A stretch of DNA of 64,000 nucleotides. Origin: Rubrobacter taiwanensis. GTDB lineage: Bacteria; Actinomycetota; Rubrobacteria; Rubrobacterales; Rubrobacteraceae. Positions 31,850 through 38,660 of this stretch are shown here, in pieces; positions within the stretch are counted from its first letter, which is position 1; every line of letters begins with the position of its first letter. Both the position numbers and the translations under genes were made by a program. The stretch spans positions 186,001-250,000 of the forward strand of contig NZ_SKBU01000006.1 in assembly GCF_004337705.1 (NCBI RefSeq). Direction: 5' to 3'. The notes under the pieces were generated by a model, which made no database searches, had not been told where the DNA came from, and saw only the letters and a program-made list of their open reading frames with translations.

Positions 31850-32046
31850 CCCTGGAGCAGGCGCCTGAGGCTCTCTTCGAGATACTCGGCGGTCACGCTT
31901 CCCTCCGGCTCGTAGGCCACGGCCTCCCGGCAGAGATGGTAGAGGGCCAGCGAACGGGTCGGGGAGAGCCGGCGGTTGCCGGCCAGCTCCAGCACGAGCC
32001 GCATCAGCTCCAGGGCGACCTCCGCGTCGCTCTTGCGCCGCTCCAC
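31846..32046 (-). CDS. Small helical protein of unknown function
   Basis: A 66-residue, charged, probably all-helical protein (AEVALELMRLVLELAGN, YHLCREAVAYE). No family recognised. It starts 3 nt after the 82-residue membrane protein and its end overlaps the hydrolase gene on the other strand by four bases. Coding character is good, but support is limited to codon bias and arrangement. Confidence 0.5.
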   Translation of the reverse strand: MERRKSDAEVALELMRLVLELAGNRRLSPTRSLALYHLCREAVAYEPEGSVTAEYLEESLRRLLQG

Positions 32047-32049
32047 GGG

Positions 32050-32298
32050 TTAGTTCCCGCGCGACTTCGCGTACAGGTAGCCGCCCGCAAACCCGAGGGC
32101 CAAGATCCCGAGCACCGAAGCGGCGCTCAGGCCGGCGGCGCGGTAGATGGCGGACCGCCGGGCCGCCGAGAGGGAGGCCCCCCTCACCCCGGCGCGCACG
32201 ACGCCCGGAGCCAGCCGGCCGGCAGCCCCGCCCGCCAGCCCGGCGGCTACATCCACTACGCGATCCCCGAAGCTCTTCCTCCTCCTCCTGTGAAACAT
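32050..32298 (-). CDS. Small membrane protein of unknown function
   Basis: An 82-residue protein with a basic N terminus (MFHRRRRKSF), a glycine- and alanine-rich middle and one clear C-terminal membrane segment (SVLGILALGFAGGYLYA). ATG 32298 follows AGGAG by eight bases. It may form a two-gene unit with the 66-residue gene downstream. No function can be assigned. Confidence 0.55.
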   Translation of the reverse strand: MFHRRRRKSFGDRVVDVAAGLAGGAAGRLAPGVVRAGVRGASLSAARRSAIYRAAGLSAASVLGILALGFAGGYLYAKSRGN

Positions 32299-32415
32299 GT
32301 TTCCGGCTCCTCTCATCCGTACCGGGTTCAGATTATACCTCCAGGCGGTGTGGTAAACTCGGAGCGTAGGGTAGAGTCCGTAAGCTGTGGACGGCAGAGC
32401 ACGCAGGGAGCGGGT

Positions 32416-33084
32416 ATGGGAGATGTCAGGCCGATCTACACCCGGTGTCCTCTGTGCGGGCAAGTCTTCCCCCACCTGCCGCCCGGCTCCTACGTGACCG
32501 TCGGGCGGGAGTCGGACCTCTGCCCGCGCTTCCCCGGCCGCCAATCCGACGCCGCGAAGATCCTGCAGCGCGAGGTGACCATGTGCCCGGCCTGCGGGTT
32601 CGCCGCCCCAGAGAACTTCGAGGAGGTGGACCTCAGCTTCGACGAGCGCTACGAGCTCGAAGAGCGGCTGGCCGGAGACGGGATGCTGCGGGTCTTCAAG
32701 AGCAACCCTACCCCCTGGCTGCCGTTCCACGCGGCCGAACTGTGCGGACGGGAGCGGGACTTCAGCCACTTCAGGCTGGGAGACATCTGCCTGCGCGCCT
32801 CGTGGGTCTGCCGCAAGGAACGCCAGCAGCCGTTCGAAAGCTCATTCCAGCACCGGGCCGTGCGGCACTTCATGCGTGCCCTGGACACCGAACCGTTGGA
32901 CTGGCGCGAGCTGCCGCTCACCACCTACCTCATCGGCGAACTGAACCGGCGACTCGGACACCACCGCGACGCCCTGAACTGGTTCGTCAACGCGGAGAGG
33001 ATGATCGGGAACCGCCCCGAACTGGCCTGGCTCAACCGCCTCATCTCCGAGCAGCGCAAGCTCGCCGAGAGCGCCGCGGCGTAG
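32416..33084 (+). CDS. DUF2225 zinc-ribbon protein
   Basis: A 222-residue protein matching DUF2225. Two CxxC pairs, CPLC at residues 11-14 and CPACGF near 60, probably bind one zinc. A helical repeat-like part follows (HFMRALDTEP, NRRLGHHRDALNWFVNAE), resembling tetratricopeptide helices, as is usual in this family. Start ATG 32416 with GGGAGCGGGT upstream. Function in the family is not established. It ends 10 bases before the converging Rrf2 gene. Confidence 0.8.
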   Translation: MGDVRPIYTRCPLCGQVFPHLPPGSYVTVGRESDLCPRFPGRQSDAAKILQREVTMCPACGFAAPENFEEVDLSFDERYELEERLAGDGMLRVFKSNPTPWLPFHAAELCGRERDFSHFRLGDICLRASWVCRKERQQPFESSFQHRAVRHFMRALDTEPLDWRELPLTTYLIGELNRRLGHHRDALNWFVNAERMIGNRPELAWLNRLISEQRKLAESAAA

Positions 33085-33094
33085 AGAGCCCCCG

Positions 33095-33511
33095 CTAGCG
33101 GGAGACGGTGCGGGTTACGAAGTCCGCGAGGGTGTGCTCCGCAAGGTACTCCAGAATTGCCTCCTGCCCCTCCTCCCAGGCCTCATGCATGGCACACGGC
33201 CGCCCCTCCCCGCAGGCGCGCTGCTCCATGATGCACCGGCTTACCTCGAAGGGCCCCTCCGAAGCCTCCACCGCGTCGCGGAGCGTGATCTCCTCCGCAG
33301 CACGGGCCAGACGGGATCCCCCACCCTTGCCCTCCCGGCTCTCCACCAGCCCGGCACGCGCGAGCCGGGCCAGAATACGAGCCAGCAGCCGGCGCGGGAT
33401 CTCTGCCTCTTCCGAGATCCTGGCCGCCGTTACCCGCTCACCCCTCCTCTCCGCCAGATAGACGAGAGCCCGCAGAGCATAGCGCCCCTCGCTGCTGAGC
33501 TCCAACCTCAC
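33095..33511 (-). CDS. Rrf2-family regulator with three-Cys cluster motif (IscR/NsrR-like)
   Basis: A 138-residue Rrf2 protein. The winged helix at residues 1-70 includes LSSEGRYALRALVYLA, RISEEAEIPRRLLARIL and the wing KGGGSRLAR. Three Cys, C93, C100 and C106 (spacing X6 and X5), match the [2Fe-2S]/[4Fe-4S] ligand region of IscR and NsrR, so it probably senses nitric oxide, oxygen or iron-sulfur status. It is divergent from a cupin gene, and the shared element at 33572-33598 lies between them. GTG start at 33511. Confidence 0.88.
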   Translation of the reverse strand: MRLELSSEGRYALRALVYLAERRGERVTAARISEEAEIPRRLLARILARLARAGLVESREGKGGGSRLARAAEEITLRDAVEASEGPFEVSRCIMEQRACGEGRPCAMHEAWEEGQEAILEYLAEHTLADFVTRTVSR

Positions 33512-33571
33512 GCTACCCGCAAGAACATCCTCGTGCCGGCCATTGCATCATGATACCGCCTCAAAGCCCTC

Positions 33572-33598
33572 TTTAACTGCTACATGTTTTGTATTAGT
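33572..33598 (+). promoter_or_regulatory. Conserved 27-bp element upstream of cupin gene 1
   Basis: It agrees with the element at 37242-37268 at 21 of 27 positions without gaps. The common core is TTTAnCT, three variable bases, then ACATnTTnTGTATTAGT. It lies 41 bp before the cupin start and 60 bp from the Rrf2 start, so it may be a promoter with an overlapping Rrf2 site (inference). Confidence 0.6.
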
Positions 33599-33639
33599 CT
33601 ATCCATACGCAACGCACTAAGGGAGAGGAGTTCAGAGAG

Positions 33640-34041
33640 ATGAGTTCGCGTCGGCATCCGGGTTCCGAGAGGCCCATGAGCGCACCGGTACAGAGCTTCA
33701 GGCTGGATGAGGCGGTGTCCCGGCTGCGTGAGGAGAAGGCGTGGCGGGAGGGACGGCGGAACGCGATCACGCTGCGCAAGGGCCAGGGCATGAACGTCGT
33801 CCTGCTGGTGATGAGAGCCGGAGACAAGCTGGAGGAACACGCAGCTCCGGGGCCTATCTCAATTAGCGTCCGGGAGGGCCGGGTGCGGTTCATGACGTCG
33901 GAAGAAACCCTCGAGGCCGGACCCGAGATGCTCATCACCTGCGAGTCCGGCGTGCGGCACAGCGCGGAGGCCCTGGAGGATGCCGTCTGCGTGGTCACCA
34001 TAGCGTCCGGAAAGACCTCCCCCATGGCAACACCAAAGTAA
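33640..34041 (+). CDS. Cupin-fold protein 1
   Basis: A 133-residue single-domain cupin: residues about 45-125 show the alternating short strands (NVVLLVMRAGDKLEEHAAPG, ISVREGRVRFM, GPEMLITCESGVRHSAEAL). Only some of the usual metal His residues are present, so metal binding is uncertain. GGGAGAGGAG precedes the ATG. It is divergent from the Rrf2 gene and shares its upstream element with the cupin at 37290. A stress-response role is inferred from the regulator, not from the fold. Confidence 0.75.
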   Translation: MSSRRHPGSERPMSAPVQSFRLDEAVSRLREEKAWREGRRNAITLRKGQGMNVVLLVMRAGDKLEEHAAPGPISISVREGRVRFMTSEETLEAGPEMLITCESGVRHSAEALEDAVCVVTIASGKTSPMATPK

Positions 34042-34073
34042 GCGTTGTTTGATCCGTAAGCGTTGTTTGATCC
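34038..34073. repeat. Perfect tandem duplication of 18 bp
   Basis: Two identical copies of GTAAGCGTTGTTTGATCC (34038-34055 and 34056-34073). The first contains the stop codon of cupin 1. It lies between that gene and the Fur box, and may be a recent slippage event or a regulator site. Confidence 0.85.
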
Positions 34074-34114
34074 AGATCACTGTCCCCACACTAAACCCCC
34101 TTTAACATTTTAGC

Positions 34115-34133
34115 GTTAATGATAATCATTAGC
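34115..34133. promoter_or_regulatory. Fur box upstream of heme uptake operon
   Basis: GTTAATGATAATCATTAGC matches the classical 19-bp Fur consensus at 17 of 19 positions. It lies 34 bp before the HmuT start codon, so iron-dependent repression of hmuTUV is very likely. Confidence 0.85.
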
Positions 34134-34167
34134 ATGTCCTCGGGAGTTACGTGTGGGAGGTGGTGAA

Positions 34168-35175
34168 ATGACGAGAAGAGGGGGGCTGGCAGTGTTGTGT
34201 CTGGCCCTGGTCTTCTCTGTGGCCTGTGGATCGCGGGGAGATTCCGGGGAGAGTTCGCGGGGCTCTGTTGCTTCGGAGGGGGAACCGGTTCGGAGCGGGG
34301 AGAGGGCGAGTCCTGAAGGGGGTCTGGAGCCGCGGCTACCGGCTACGGTGGCGAGTGCCGATGGGGAGGAGGTGACGGTCGGGGATGTGAGCAGGATCGT
34401 CCCGCTCAACGGGGACATAGCGGAGATTGTGTGGGCTTTGGGGCTTGGGGAGAACGTCGTCGGCACCGACGTGAGCGCGACCTACCCGGAGGAGGCGCAG
34501 GAGCTGCCCAAGTTCGGCTACCAGCGGGAGCTAAACGCTGAGGGGATACTCTCGCTTAACCCCAGCGTGGTAATAGGCACTGAGGAGGCCGGACCTCCGG
34601 AGGTGATAGAGCAGATCCGGGCTTCCGGCGTGCCGGTCGTCATTTTGGAGGACCCGCCGACTCTGGAGGCTCCGGAGCAGAAGATCCGGGGCGTCGCCGA
34701 GGCCTTGGGGGTGCCGGAGAAGGGAGAAGAGCTTGCAACGCGGACCCGGGAGGAGATAGACGAAGCTCTGGAGCTCGCCGGAGAGACCGAGTCCGAACCC
34801 AGCGTGATGTTCCTCTACGTGCGGGGGCAGGGGACGCAGATGATCGGGGGCCGCGGCTCTACCGCCGACACCCTCATTCAGGCCGCCGGCGGCATCGACG
34901 CCGGGACCGAGGCCGGGATAGACGGCTACCGGCCGCTCACCCCGGAGGCGCTCTCCGCAGCCCAGCCGGACGTGTTGCTCCTGCTCTCGGCCGGCCTGGA
35001 GTCCGTCGGCGGCGAGGAGGGGCTGCTTCGGATACCCGGCATCGCCGAGACGCCTGCCGCGCAGGAGGGCCGCATCCTCGCCTACGACGACCTGTACCTG
35101 CTCGGCATGGGTCCCCGTACCGGCCAGGCGCTCAGGGAGCTCGTGCTCGATCTGCACCCCGAACTGGAGGAGTAG
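34168..35175 (+). CDS. hmuT: Heme ABC transporter substrate-binding lipoprotein
   Basis: A 335-residue class III binding protein. The lipobox FSVACG follows a hydrophobic signal. HmuT-type features are VVGTDVSATYPEEAQELPK, the Tyr in FGYQREL (candidate axial heme ligand region), LLLSAGLESVGG, and YLLGMGPRTGQAL near the end. It captures heme or hemin and hands it to HmuUV. The ATG at 34168 follows GGAGGTGG. It is the first gene of the operon under the Fur box. A corrinoid or siderophore substrate is possible but less likely. Confidence 0.85.
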   Translation: MTRRGGLAVLCLALVFSVACGSRGDSGESSRGSVASEGEPVRSGERASPEGGLEPRLPATVASADGEEVTVGDVSRIVPLNGDIAEIVWALGLGENVVGTDVSATYPEEAQELPKFGYQRELNAEGILSLNPSVVIGTEEAGPPEVIEQIRASGVPVVILEDPPTLEAPEQKIRGVAEALGVPEKGEELATRTREEIDEALELAGETESEPSVMFLYVRGQGTQMIGGRGSTADTLIQAAGGIDAGTEAGIDGYRPLTPEALSAAQPDVLLLLSAGLESVGGEEGLLRIPGIAETPAAQEGRILAYDDLYLLGMGPRTGQALRELVLDLHPELEE

Positions 35176-35183
35176 ACGAAGAG

Positions 35184-36299
35184 GTGTTGGGGAGTACCGG
35201 AGCGAGAGCGCTGAAGGCGCTGCGGCGTAAGCGGGAGGTTGCGGGCTGGTTCTCCGGCGCGAGCGGGCGCTTGATCGCCCGGGCCGCGCTCTTCCCGTTG
35301 CTGACGGTGGCGCTGGTCGCGGCGGTGCTGCTGAACGTAGGGCTCGGGGCCGTCGGGATCGGGCCGCTGGAGGTCGTCGCGATCCTGGCCGGAGGAGCAG
35401 GGCTGGACCTCGGGGTCCCGTACACCGAACAGCAGGCGGCGGTGCTGTGGGGGATCCGGCTGCCCCGGGTCGCGTTGGGCGCGCTGGTGGGCGGAGGGCT
35501 CGCGGTGGCCGGAGCCGCGCTGCAGGGTATCTTCCGCAACCCGCTTGCCGAGCCCGGCATCATCGGGGTCTCCAGCGGCGCGGCGCTCGGTGCGGTGGCC
35601 GCCATCGTGTTCGGGATCGCCGCCTTCGGAGGACTCGCGCTGCCGTTCTTCGCCTTCGGCGGCGGTCTTCTCGCCACGCTCACCGTCTACGCCTTCGCCC
35701 GCCACGGCGGCCGGACGGAGGTCGTGACCCTCATCCTCACCGGCATCGCCGTGAACGCCGTGGCCGGCGCGGGAACGGGTCTCCTGACCACGATGGCCAC
35801 CGATGCCCAGCTCCGCAACATCGTGTTCTGGACGCTCGGCAGCCTCGGGGGAGCCACGTGGCCGGCGGTGCTGACCGTTCTGCCGTTCGTCGGAGCCGGA
35901 GCGTTCCTCGCAGCACGCCGGGGCCGGGAGCTGAACCTGATGGTCCTCGGCGAGAGCGAGGCGCAGCACCTCGGCGTCTCCACCGAGCGGGTACGCCTGG
36001 CGCTCATAGCCCTCGCGGCCCTCATCACGGGCGCAGCCGTCTCGGTCTCCGGGATCATCGGTTTCGTGGGGCTGGTGGTGCCGCACCTGATCCGGCTGCT
36101 CTCAGGCCCCGACCACCGCACGCTCCTGCCGGCCAGCGTCCTGGGCGGCGCGGCCCTCCTGCTCCTGGCCGACCTCGCCGCCCGCACCCTGGTCATCCCC
36201 GCCGAGCTGCCCCTGGGAGTCGTCACAGCCTTCGTCGGCGGCCCGTTCTTCCTCTGGCTGTTGCACCGCACCCGCAAGCAGCATGGGGGCTGGGGATGA
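35184..36299 (+). CDS. hmuU: Heme ABC transporter permease
   Basis: A 371-residue FecCD-family permease with about ten hydrophobic segments. Family landmarks are IRLPRVALGALVGGGLAVAG, LQGIFRNPLAEPGIIGVSSG, and GIIGFVGLVVPHLIRLLSGPDHR. Homodimers form the heme channel in the membrane. GTG start nine bases after the hmuT stop, with GGAGG in the last codons of hmuT. Its stop overlaps the start of hmuV. Confidence 0.9.
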   Translation: MLGSTGARALKALRRKREVAGWFSGASGRLIARAALFPLLTVALVAAVLLNVGLGAVGIGPLEVVAILAGGAGLDLGVPYTEQQAAVLWGIRLPRVALGALVGGGLAVAGAALQGIFRNPLAEPGIIGVSSGAALGAVAAIVFGIAAFGGLALPFFAFGGGLLATLTVYAFARHGGRTEVVTLILTGIAVNAVAGAGTGLLTTMATDAQLRNIVFWTLGSLGGATWPAVLTVLPFVGAGAFLAARRGRELNLMVLGESEAQHLGVSTERVRLALIALAALITGAAVSVSGIIGFVGLVVPHLIRLLSGPDHRTLLPASVLGGAALLLLADLAARTLVIPAELPLGVVTAFVGGPFFLWLLHRTRKQHGGWG

Positions 36300-37132
36300 G
36301 ATACGCCGCCCTTCAGGCCCGCGACCTCGGGTACTCCGCCGGAGCGAGCCGCCTGCTCGGCGGCGTCGAGCTGGAGCTCTACCCCGGAGAGCTCCTGGCG
36401 CTCGTCGGCCCCAACGGGGCAGGCAAGACGACCCTGCTGCGGCTGCTCGCAGGGGACGCTGAGCCGGCCGAAGGGGAGGTCCTGCTCTACGGCCGGCCAC
36501 TATCCGATTATGCGGTCCGGGAACTCGCCTTGAAGCGCTCTGTGCTGCCGCAGCAGACGTACCTCCGGTTCGCCTTCACCGCGCTGGAGGTCGTGCTGAT
36601 GGGCCGCGCGCCGCATCTGGGCTTCGGACGGGACGAGGGCCCGGAGGATCTGGCGGTGGCGAGACGCTGCATGGAGCAGACCGACACCCGGCACCTGGAG
36701 GCCCGCAGCTACCCCACCCTCTCGGGCGGCGAGCAGCGGCGCGTCACCCTCGCGCGCGTCCTGGCGCAGGAGGCGCCGGTGATGCTCCTCGACGAGCCGA
36801 CGGCCGCCCTGGACATCCGCCACCAGGAGCTGGTGATGGAGACGGCGCGCGGGCTCGCAGCCGGCGGGGCCGCGGTCCTGGCCGTGCTGCACGACCTGAA
36901 CCTCGCCGCCGCCCACGCCGACCGGGTGGCCGTCTTGAGCGGGGGAGAGCTGGTCGCGCTGGGCCGGCCGGCAGAGGTGATGACGGCGGATTTGCTCTCC
37001 GGAGTCTTCGACTACCCGATCTCCGTCACCGAGCACCCGGCCCGCGGGACGCCGCTGATACTCCCGCTGCCCCGAACCGGACCGGCAGAGGAGAGAACAG
37101 GAATGAGGAACGCAGACCGACATCCAGATTAA
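36296..37132 (+). CDS. hmuV: Heme ABC transporter ATPase
   Basis: A 278-residue ATPase: Walker A GPNGAGKTT, Q-loop in LPQQTYL, signature LSGGEQRRVTLAR, Walker B VMLLDEPTAALD and switch His in LHDLNLA. It energises heme import by HmuU. The ATG at 36296 overlaps the hmuU stop (ATGA). The C-terminal tail of about 25 residues (after LILPLP) is Arg-rich and not conserved in the family as far as I know. Confidence 0.9.
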   Translation: MRYAALQARDLGYSAGASRLLGGVELELYPGELLALVGPNGAGKTTLLRLLAGDAEPAEGEVLLYGRPLSDYAVRELALKRSVLPQQTYLRFAFTALEVVLMGRAPHLGFGRDEGPEDLAVARRCMEQTDTRHLEARSYPTLSGGEQRRVTLARVLAQEAPVMLLDEPTAALDIRHQELVMETARGLAAGGAAVLAVLHDLNLAAAHADRVAVLSGGELVALGRPAEVMTADLLSGVFDYPISVTEHPARGTPLILPLPRTGPAEERTGMRNADRHPD

Positions 37133-37241
37133 CCCCCGGACTCCGGTATCCCGAGCTGGCGCCGCTCAGGGAGATCAAACCCCATCACCCCCCTCTTCCT
37201 CACCAACCGCCCCCATGCCTCAAACCCCCTCAAGGAAGCGC

Positions 37242-37268
37242 TTTATCTATGACATTTTATGTATTAGT
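37242..37268 (+). promoter_or_regulatory. Conserved 27-bp element upstream of cupin gene 2
   Basis: Matches the element at 33572-33598 at 21 of 27 positions. Here the inner part, ACAT-TTT-ATGT (37252-37262), is a perfect inverted repeat. It ends 21 bp before the cupin ATG. Confidence 0.6.
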
Positions 37269-37289
37269 ATGTTTTCATGGAGGTGATAG

Positions 37290-37655
37290 ATGCGCGAGGA
37301 GAGAGGTGATCCGGGTCACGCGGCCGACCTGCGAAAGCTGGCTGCCGGGAGCCGGGGCAGTTTCGGGACGGTCTGGACGCTGGCGGGGAGCGAGGATCTG
37401 AACGCGAACCTCGTGCTCTTTTCGGCCGGAAGCGGTGTCGGGGAGCACGTCAGCGACGAGGTGGACGTCGTACTGGTCGGGGTGGCCGGTTCTGGAAGCG
37501 TCACCGTGGAGGGTAAGGAGCACCCGCTGGCGGCCGGGAGGCTGGTGTTTATCCCGAAAGGGGTCCGGCGTTCGGTGCGCAGCGGTTCGGAGGATTTCGC
37601 TTACCTCAGCCTCCACCGAAGGAAGGGCGCGTTGAAGATCGGCGGGAAGGGGTAG
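37290..37655 (+). CDS. Cupin-fold protein 2
   Basis: A 121-residue cupin (LVLFSAGSGVGEHVSDEVDV, GSVTVEGKEHPLAAGRLVF, IPKGVRRSVRSG). A possible metal site includes His in GEH and in KEH. The ATG follows GGAGGTGATAG. It is followed at once by the remains of a hemerythrin-like gene; cupin plus hemerythrin is a pairing seen in iron and nitric-oxide related contexts (inference). It resembles cupin 1 in size and promoter element but not closely in sequence. Confidence 0.8.
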   Translation: MREERGDPGHAADLRKLAAGSRGSFGTVWTLAGSEDLNANLVLFSAGSGVGEHVSDEVDVVLVGVAGSGSVTVEGKEHPLAAGRLVFIPKGVRRSVRSGSEDFAYLSLHRRKGALKIGGKG

Positions 37656-37660
37656 CGGGC

Positions 37661-37794
37661 GTGAAGCGGCCCTCAGGGAGTTCTCCGACGACCACCACCA
37701 GGGATTGGTGCGGGCGCTGCGGCTGCGGCGGGCGGCCGCAGGCGAAGGAGCGTCCGGGGAGGTGGCGGTGCGAGAGGCTAGCGTTCGGAGCTAG
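37661..37794 (+). pseudogene. Hemerythrin (HHE) domain remnant
   Basis: The frame beginning at 37672 reads LREFSDDHHQGLVRAL followed by LRLRRAA, the start of an HHE hemerythrin domain with its first iron His pair. A GTG at 37661 (MKRP) is in another frame; adding one base at 37671 would join them, so a one-base deletion is likely. The frame then ends at TAG 37792, after about 40 residues, where a complete protein would have well over 100. The rest of the gene is missing and the LCP gene abuts it. Probably a decayed partner of cupin 2. Confidence 0.6.
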
Positions 37795-38660
37795 TCTATC
37801 GTGTTCTCTACGGTCTGCCGGCCGGTGGCGGTGTCGGGGATCCAGTAGGAGATGCCGTCTATGTACTGAGGTGTGCCGGGATAGAGTTCGGCCGTCATCT
37901 CGCCGCGGGCGAGGCTCAGCCGCACGCCGAAGATGGCGAGCTCGACGGGGTTCATGTTCGTCTCGATGCTGTTCCAGGTGGCCCGGATCACGCCCGGCAA
38001 ATCCGGGATGTTCGCCGGCGAGGTGACTTCGGAGAAGGCTGCCTGCAGGAAGCGCTGCTGGCGCTCTATGCGCCCGATATCTGCCGTGGGGCCGCCCCGG
38101 TAGCGGACGTAGGCCAGGGCCTGCTCGCCGTTCAGTGTCTGGAGACCGGGCTGGAGGCTCACGCCGTCTACGTTCAGCGGCTCCTGCACGTCCAACGTGA
38201 TGCCGCCCATGGCGTCCACGATCTCCTCGACGCCCTCGAAGCGGATCACCACGTAGTTCCCGATCGAGCGTCCGGTGAAGCTCTCCAGCGTCTCCACGGT
38301 GAGTTCGGGCCCGCCATAGGCGAAGGCGGCGTTGATCTTATCCTGGCCGTGGCCCGGAATCTCGACCAGCGTGTCCCGTGGCACGGAGAGCATGCCGGCC
38401 CCGTTGTCGGTGCCCACGGCCGCGATCATGATCGTGTCCGAGCGGGAGGCCTCGTCCTCCGGGCGGGCGTCGCTCCCCAGCAGCACGACGCGCTGCGTTC
38501 CGAGGAGCGTGAAGAGGGCGTAGAGGACGAGCAGCGCGAAGAGGGCCAGCAGCGCCAGCGGCACCCAGCGCCGCCGCCTGCGGGGAGCGCTGGGGGGCCG
38601 GCGCTCCTCCGGGGACCGGAGCTCCGTGCGGGGGATGTGGCCGGCCCGGTAGACCCTCAT
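37791..38660 (-). CDS. LytR-CpsA-Psr family cell-envelope glycopolymer transferase
   Basis: A 289-residue LCP protein. A cytoplasmic Arg-rich N terminus is followed by one membrane segment (VPLALLALFALLVLYALFTLL, about 33-53). The catalytic domain shows LLGSDAR, RSDTIMIAAV, LSVPRDTLVEIPG and KINAAFAYGG, with the Arg/Asp residues that bind the polyprenyl pyrophosphate. Such enzymes attach teichoic-acid-like or other polymers to peptidoglycan outside the cell. It is single, divergent from the membrane protein at 38777. Confidence 0.9.
   Translation of the reverse strand: MRVYRAGHIPRTELRSPEERRPPSAPRRRRRWVPLALLALFALLVLYALFTLLGTQRVVLLGSDARPEDEASRSDTIMIAAVGTDNGAGMLSVPRDTLVEIPGHGQDKINAAFAYGGPELTVETLESFTGRSIGNYVVIRFEGVEEIVDAMGGITLDVQEPLNVDGVSLQPGLQTLNGEQALAYVRYRGGPTADIGRIERQQRFLQAAFSEVTSPANIPDLPGVIRATWNSIETNMNPVELAIFGVRLSLARGEMTAELYPGTPQYIDGISYWIPDTATGRQTVENTID

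Follow-up and report, generated by a model that had tools for sequence, protein, structure and literature searches.

Among the closest described systems are the regulons of NsrR, an Rrf2 protein which, in the part of the published account considered here (PMC1274295), controls dnrN/ytfE, and in which an Rrf2-family regulator and RIC (dnrN/ytfE) genes lie near nitrogen-oxide respiration genes. Rubrobacteraceae genomes likewise carry an Rrf2-family regulator and, in some members, a RIC gene (RIC/YtfE/ScdA, TIGR03652) near cupin-hemerythrin genes and sharing their operator-like site, here with three invariant cysteines in Rrf2 and with the putative site TTACTATnnTnGTAATAGTA, which differs from the gATGyAT-N5-ATrCATc reported for NsrR in the same part of that account (PMC1274295). 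The hemerythrins of this group are single-domain proteins encoded beside a second cupin gene, cupin 2 (PF01814; L041, L030 and L133). A literature search found no paper joining hemerythrin, cupin and an NsrR/Rrf2 regulon; for hemerythrin in Rubrobacter it gave a paper on globins. We analyzed a 64,000-nucleotide stretch of the Rubrobacter taiwanensis genome (hereafter, the window), in which a hemerythrin sequence sits directly 3' of cupin 2. It resembles the single-domain hemerythrins in place, strand and start context and is not a RIC; unlike them, it is cut short at ~39 codons and no longer in frame. Very probably it is the stub of a dead cupin 2-paired hemerythrin of an Rrf2 regulon, cut at the edge of a block that lies between a DUF2225 gene and a LytR-CpsA-Psr (LCP) gene (Table 1).

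Table 1 Features of the hemerythrin remnant and its surroundings, in window positions.
Feature	Position	Strand	Evidence or remark
DUF2225 gene (start uncertain)	31936..33084	+	convergent with LCP and usually next to it in relatives
Rrf2-family regulator, invariant Cys93, Cys100, Cys106 and His109	33095..33511	-	PF02082, E 8.9e-39
Operator-like site between Rrf2 and cupin 1	33580..33599	+	matrix rank 3/127,962
Cupin 1	33640..34041	+	59-71% identity to relatives' cupin 1
Fur-box-like palindrome, 5' of ABC operon	34115..34133	+	2 mismatches to the consensus
Iron-type ABC operon between cupin 1 and cupin 2	34153..37132	+	absent near the cupins in the relatives' loci examined
ABC binding protein	34153-35175	+	
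ABC permease	35184-36299	+	named by sequence and neighbours
ABC ATPase	36296-37132	+	
Operator-like site 5' of cupin 2	37250..37269	+	matrix rank 1/127,962
Cupin 2, intact, 121 aa	37290..37655	+	Cupin_2, E 6.4e-7
Hemerythrin (HHE) pseudogene remnant	37660..37767	+	profile, single-protein and DNA alignment evidence
Old GTG start and site of 7-nt loss relative to relatives	37661..37672	+	DNA alignment
Right border of putative inserted block: hemerythrin homology ends, LCP 3' spacer begins	37768..37790	.	
LCP gene, complete	37791..38660	-	alignment with the best orthologues reaches residue 284-289 of 289

A preliminary description of this DNA had reported a truncated, frame-shifted HHE start after cupin 2, and this sequence proved to be real. 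A profile of eight intact Rubrobacteraceae hemerythrins matched 37660-37767 and no other place in the 3.0-Mb genome up to E 10 (45 bits, E 1.7e-11), and one relative's hemerythrin used as the query returned the same sole place (E 5.2e-8; 72% over residues 3-34). The window has 1414 stop-to-stop frames of ≥20 aa, of which the remnant frame scored E 3.9e-14 and the runner-up E 1.1. The match corresponds to about residues 3-39 of a hemerythrin of ~150 residues and is off-frame relative to the old GTG start; its frame translates from 37660 to 37791 as REAALREFSDDHHQGLVRALRLRRAAAGEGASGEVAV... and closes with TAG at 37792-37794. The 52-aa remnant frame had no Pfam match, residues 3-39 being seen by the close-family profile only. 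The remnant thus falls outside the HHE-domain profile (PF01814) and represents a piece of a hemerythrin gene rather than a protein of the family.

Two separate lesions were found. Alignment of the DNA with six relatives showed the same GTG start context, followed by 7 nt fewer between GTG 37661 and a conserved Leu codon, a gap that shifts the frame of the remnant. Homology then stops at about codon 39, so that about 110 C-terminal codons are gone. Both lesions are inactivating, as expected of a pseudogene, and they contradict the earlier idea that one base is missing and might be recovered by resequencing. Five residues that are invariant in the intact hemerythrins (H53, E57, H85, H119 and E123), which we take to be the likely di-iron ligands, have no counterpart in the remnant; instead of His/Glu ligands on four helices it keeps the first helix (D-H-H) alone. 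The assembly is a 57-contig draft, in which an intact hemerythrin might in principle be hidden by a sequencing or assembly error. This is very improbable, as it would require two independent lesions, the C-terminal two thirds of the gene are nowhere in the 57 contigs, and the junction enters a complete LCP gene inside a 350-kb contig.

The surviving residues are still very near those of the relatives: 16-20 of 22 are identical between the remnant and intact hemerythrins, the same range as among the relatives themselves (16-20, mean 17.4), so the decay is recent. Together with the preserved GTG and its context, this closeness could be taken to mean that the stub yields a short functional peptide, alone or via frameshifting. 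Against this, no ATG, GTG or TTG was found before 37705 in the remnant frame, leaving the HHE helix without a start codon, and the frame is out of phase with both cupin 2 and GTG 37661. Reading from that GTG gives 121 Arg/Cys-rich residues running antisense into LCP, with no Pfam match, and a hemerythrin requires the ligands that are missing. We therefore regard a functional peptide as scarcely credible. As read from the DNA, the remnant is the 5' stub of a genuine, ordinary pseudogene, from which no di-iron protein can be made.

The expectation in the preliminary description that a partner hemerythrin should lie 3' of cupin 2 was borne out by related strains, where intact pairs, rather than a lack of hemerythrin neighbours, were found. 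Of 21 cupin-2 loci examined in Rubrobacteraceae, 8 have an intact hemerythrin directly after the cupin, so that intact orthologues of the remnant exist in the same gene order. These loci, which include Rubrobacter marinus, comprise 13 strong cupin-2 loci from 12 genomes and 8 further Rubrobacter or Rubrobacteraceae-like loci, with possible species overlap between the two sets. Seven of the strong loci have the intact neighbour (G020, G003, G009, G004, G001, G013 and G022), and five lack a downstream hemerythrin (G005, G023, G019, G008 and a second G020 copy); the thirteenth is the window. In G008 and G019, a hemerythrin adjoins RIC elsewhere in the genome. Among the further loci, L133 alone has a downstream hemerythrin and seven have none. 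The order Rrf2 - cupin 1 - cupin 2 - hemerythrin was seen in G009, G003 and L133, and the genes are dispersed in G004. Among solved structures, YtfE comes closest to an intact hemerythrin of the remnant's kind, with a weak match (E 0.019).

We also considered whether other relatives hold remnants. For the 15 cupin-2 loci lacking an intact neighbour (window included, two loci outside the family), the 1.5 kb that follows was searched in three frames. No remnant but that of the window was found (E 5.5e-14; next 0.63), and this idea was rejected.

The gene order around the remnant points to how the gene was probably lost. In the window, DUF2225 and LCP are split by a ~4.7-kb block (33085-37790) holding Rrf2, cupin 1, the ABC operon, cupin 2 and the remnant. 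The two flanking genes are adjacent and convergent in 23 of 28 LCP loci of relatives, with a gap of ≤59 bp in 12, 163-417 bp in 3 and 0.67-1.3 kb in 8; the last group indicates that the site is variable anyway. No cupin, Rrf2 or ABC gene was found at the 28 LCP loci, several of which end at contig ends, and no LCP gene in the 13 relatives' cupin stretches examined. The 23 bp between the end of hemerythrin homology (37767) and the LCP stop resemble the native DUF2225-LCP spacer, which measures 13-31 bp in 11 relatives, and this places the hemerythrin break at the edge of the block. A simple deletion in place, independent of the arrival of the block, is an unlikely though serious alternative: many cupin-2 loci of the family are without hemerythrin (5 of the 13 strong loci and 7 of the further ones), suggesting that its loss may be common and proceed without rearrangement, but the break lies at the block edge, with a spacer much like the native one. 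No transposase or mobile-element gene was seen at the block edges. A 7-mer occurring near both edges was rejected as a target-site duplication; it is not significant, since a second 7-mer is also common to both and such sharing is within chance.

Under the truncation by block movement that we favour, the hemerythrin would once have been the partner of cupin 2 in a stress regulon controlled by Rrf2. The 5' part of its gene would then have moved between DUF2225 and LCP in one block with Rrf2 and the two cupins, the right edge of the block cutting the hemerythrin with ~39 codons left, and the loss of 7 nt beside the start codon probably came later. The iron-type transporter operon now lies inside the block, and Rrf2, both cupins and the operator-like sites are still present. 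The locus shows a clean and recent loss of a gene, the likely cause of which can be read from the gene order, although the event can be neither dated nor polarised within the genus because the window genome is its sole member in the set.

In relatives, the palindrome-like site TTACTATnnTnGTAATAGTA is located 5' of cupin 1 (G003, G009, G005, G001, G013, G022 and G047), 5' of cupin 2 (G020), 5' of RIC (G008, G019 and G020) and between Rrf2 and cupin 1 (G004). A weight matrix built from ten relatives' sites, none from the window, was used to score 127,962 window positions, and ranked the cupin 2 promoter first and the cupin 1 promoter third. The two matches reached 19.9 and 15.1 bits, below all ten training sites (27.5-40.3), and 1 of 10 one-strand shuffled windows scored as high as 17.4 bits. 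A local variant pattern, derived from the cupin 1 and cupin 2 sites, matched those two sites alone in the genome. Across 39 genomes, the operator pattern gave 73 matches versus 19 for its reversed control (summed by eye), and its two matches in the window genome are on other contigs. Three Cys and one His of Rrf2 are invariant in 8/8 sequences, a pattern compatible with an Fe-S Rrf2 protein, and the structures of CymR, IscR and NsrR match it at similar scores. We infer that Rrf2 binds the operator-like site and that the regulon responds to nitrogen oxides or related iron-sulfur stress. The conserved neighbourhood and shared operator link a di-iron protein with a cupin not yet characterised, from which we propose that the cupins act with hemerythrin/RIC in a nitrogen-oxide response.

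The suggestion in the preliminary description that an iron protein was lost from this regulon is supported by these operator ranks and by the rest of the genome, where no PF01814 match above the Pfam cut-off and no ScdA_N (RIC) gene were detected. A sub-threshold hemerythrin Pfam match (16.1 bits versus a cut-off of 25.3) lies in a 315-codon frame on contig C39 (L160).

Cupin 2 tracks the nitrate reductase (nar) gene narH in the family: it was present in 11 of 12 genomes with narH above cut-off versus 1 of 13 without (25 family genomes; Fisher p 3.3e-5, kinship uncorrected). G047, outside the 25-genome panel, has cupin 2 and no narH match above cut-off. Sites of the form TTACTATnnTnGTAATAGTA cluster near nar, RIC, a Crp/Fnr-like regulator and cupin-hemerythrin genes in G020 (L151-L153; narH, narJ and narI) and G003 (L028-L029; narH and narI). 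The window genome retains narH (E 1.0e-247) and narI on another contig, and loss of nitrate respiration was accordingly rejected as the cause of the hemerythrin loss.

A broader reading is possible, and we offer it tentatively. Rubrobacteraceae may have an undescribed Rrf2 regulon for nitrogen-oxide/iron-sulfur stress that comprises cupin 1, cupin 2, hemerythrin and RIC, uses TTACTATnnTnGTAATAGTA and often lies beside nar; in the window genome it would have left the nar genes as a block and settled at the DUF2225-LCP junction, with an iron importer under Fur control acquired in its middle, both di-iron proteins lost and nitrate reductase retained. If so, the window cupins may now do the job of the regulon alone or with iron import. 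An ABC operon near the cupins was not found in the relatives' loci examined, and no Fur-box-like palindrome of the quality of that preceding the operon arose in 100 shuffles. A further cupin gene adjoins the retained nar operon of the window genome (L159:6756-7193, contig C6).
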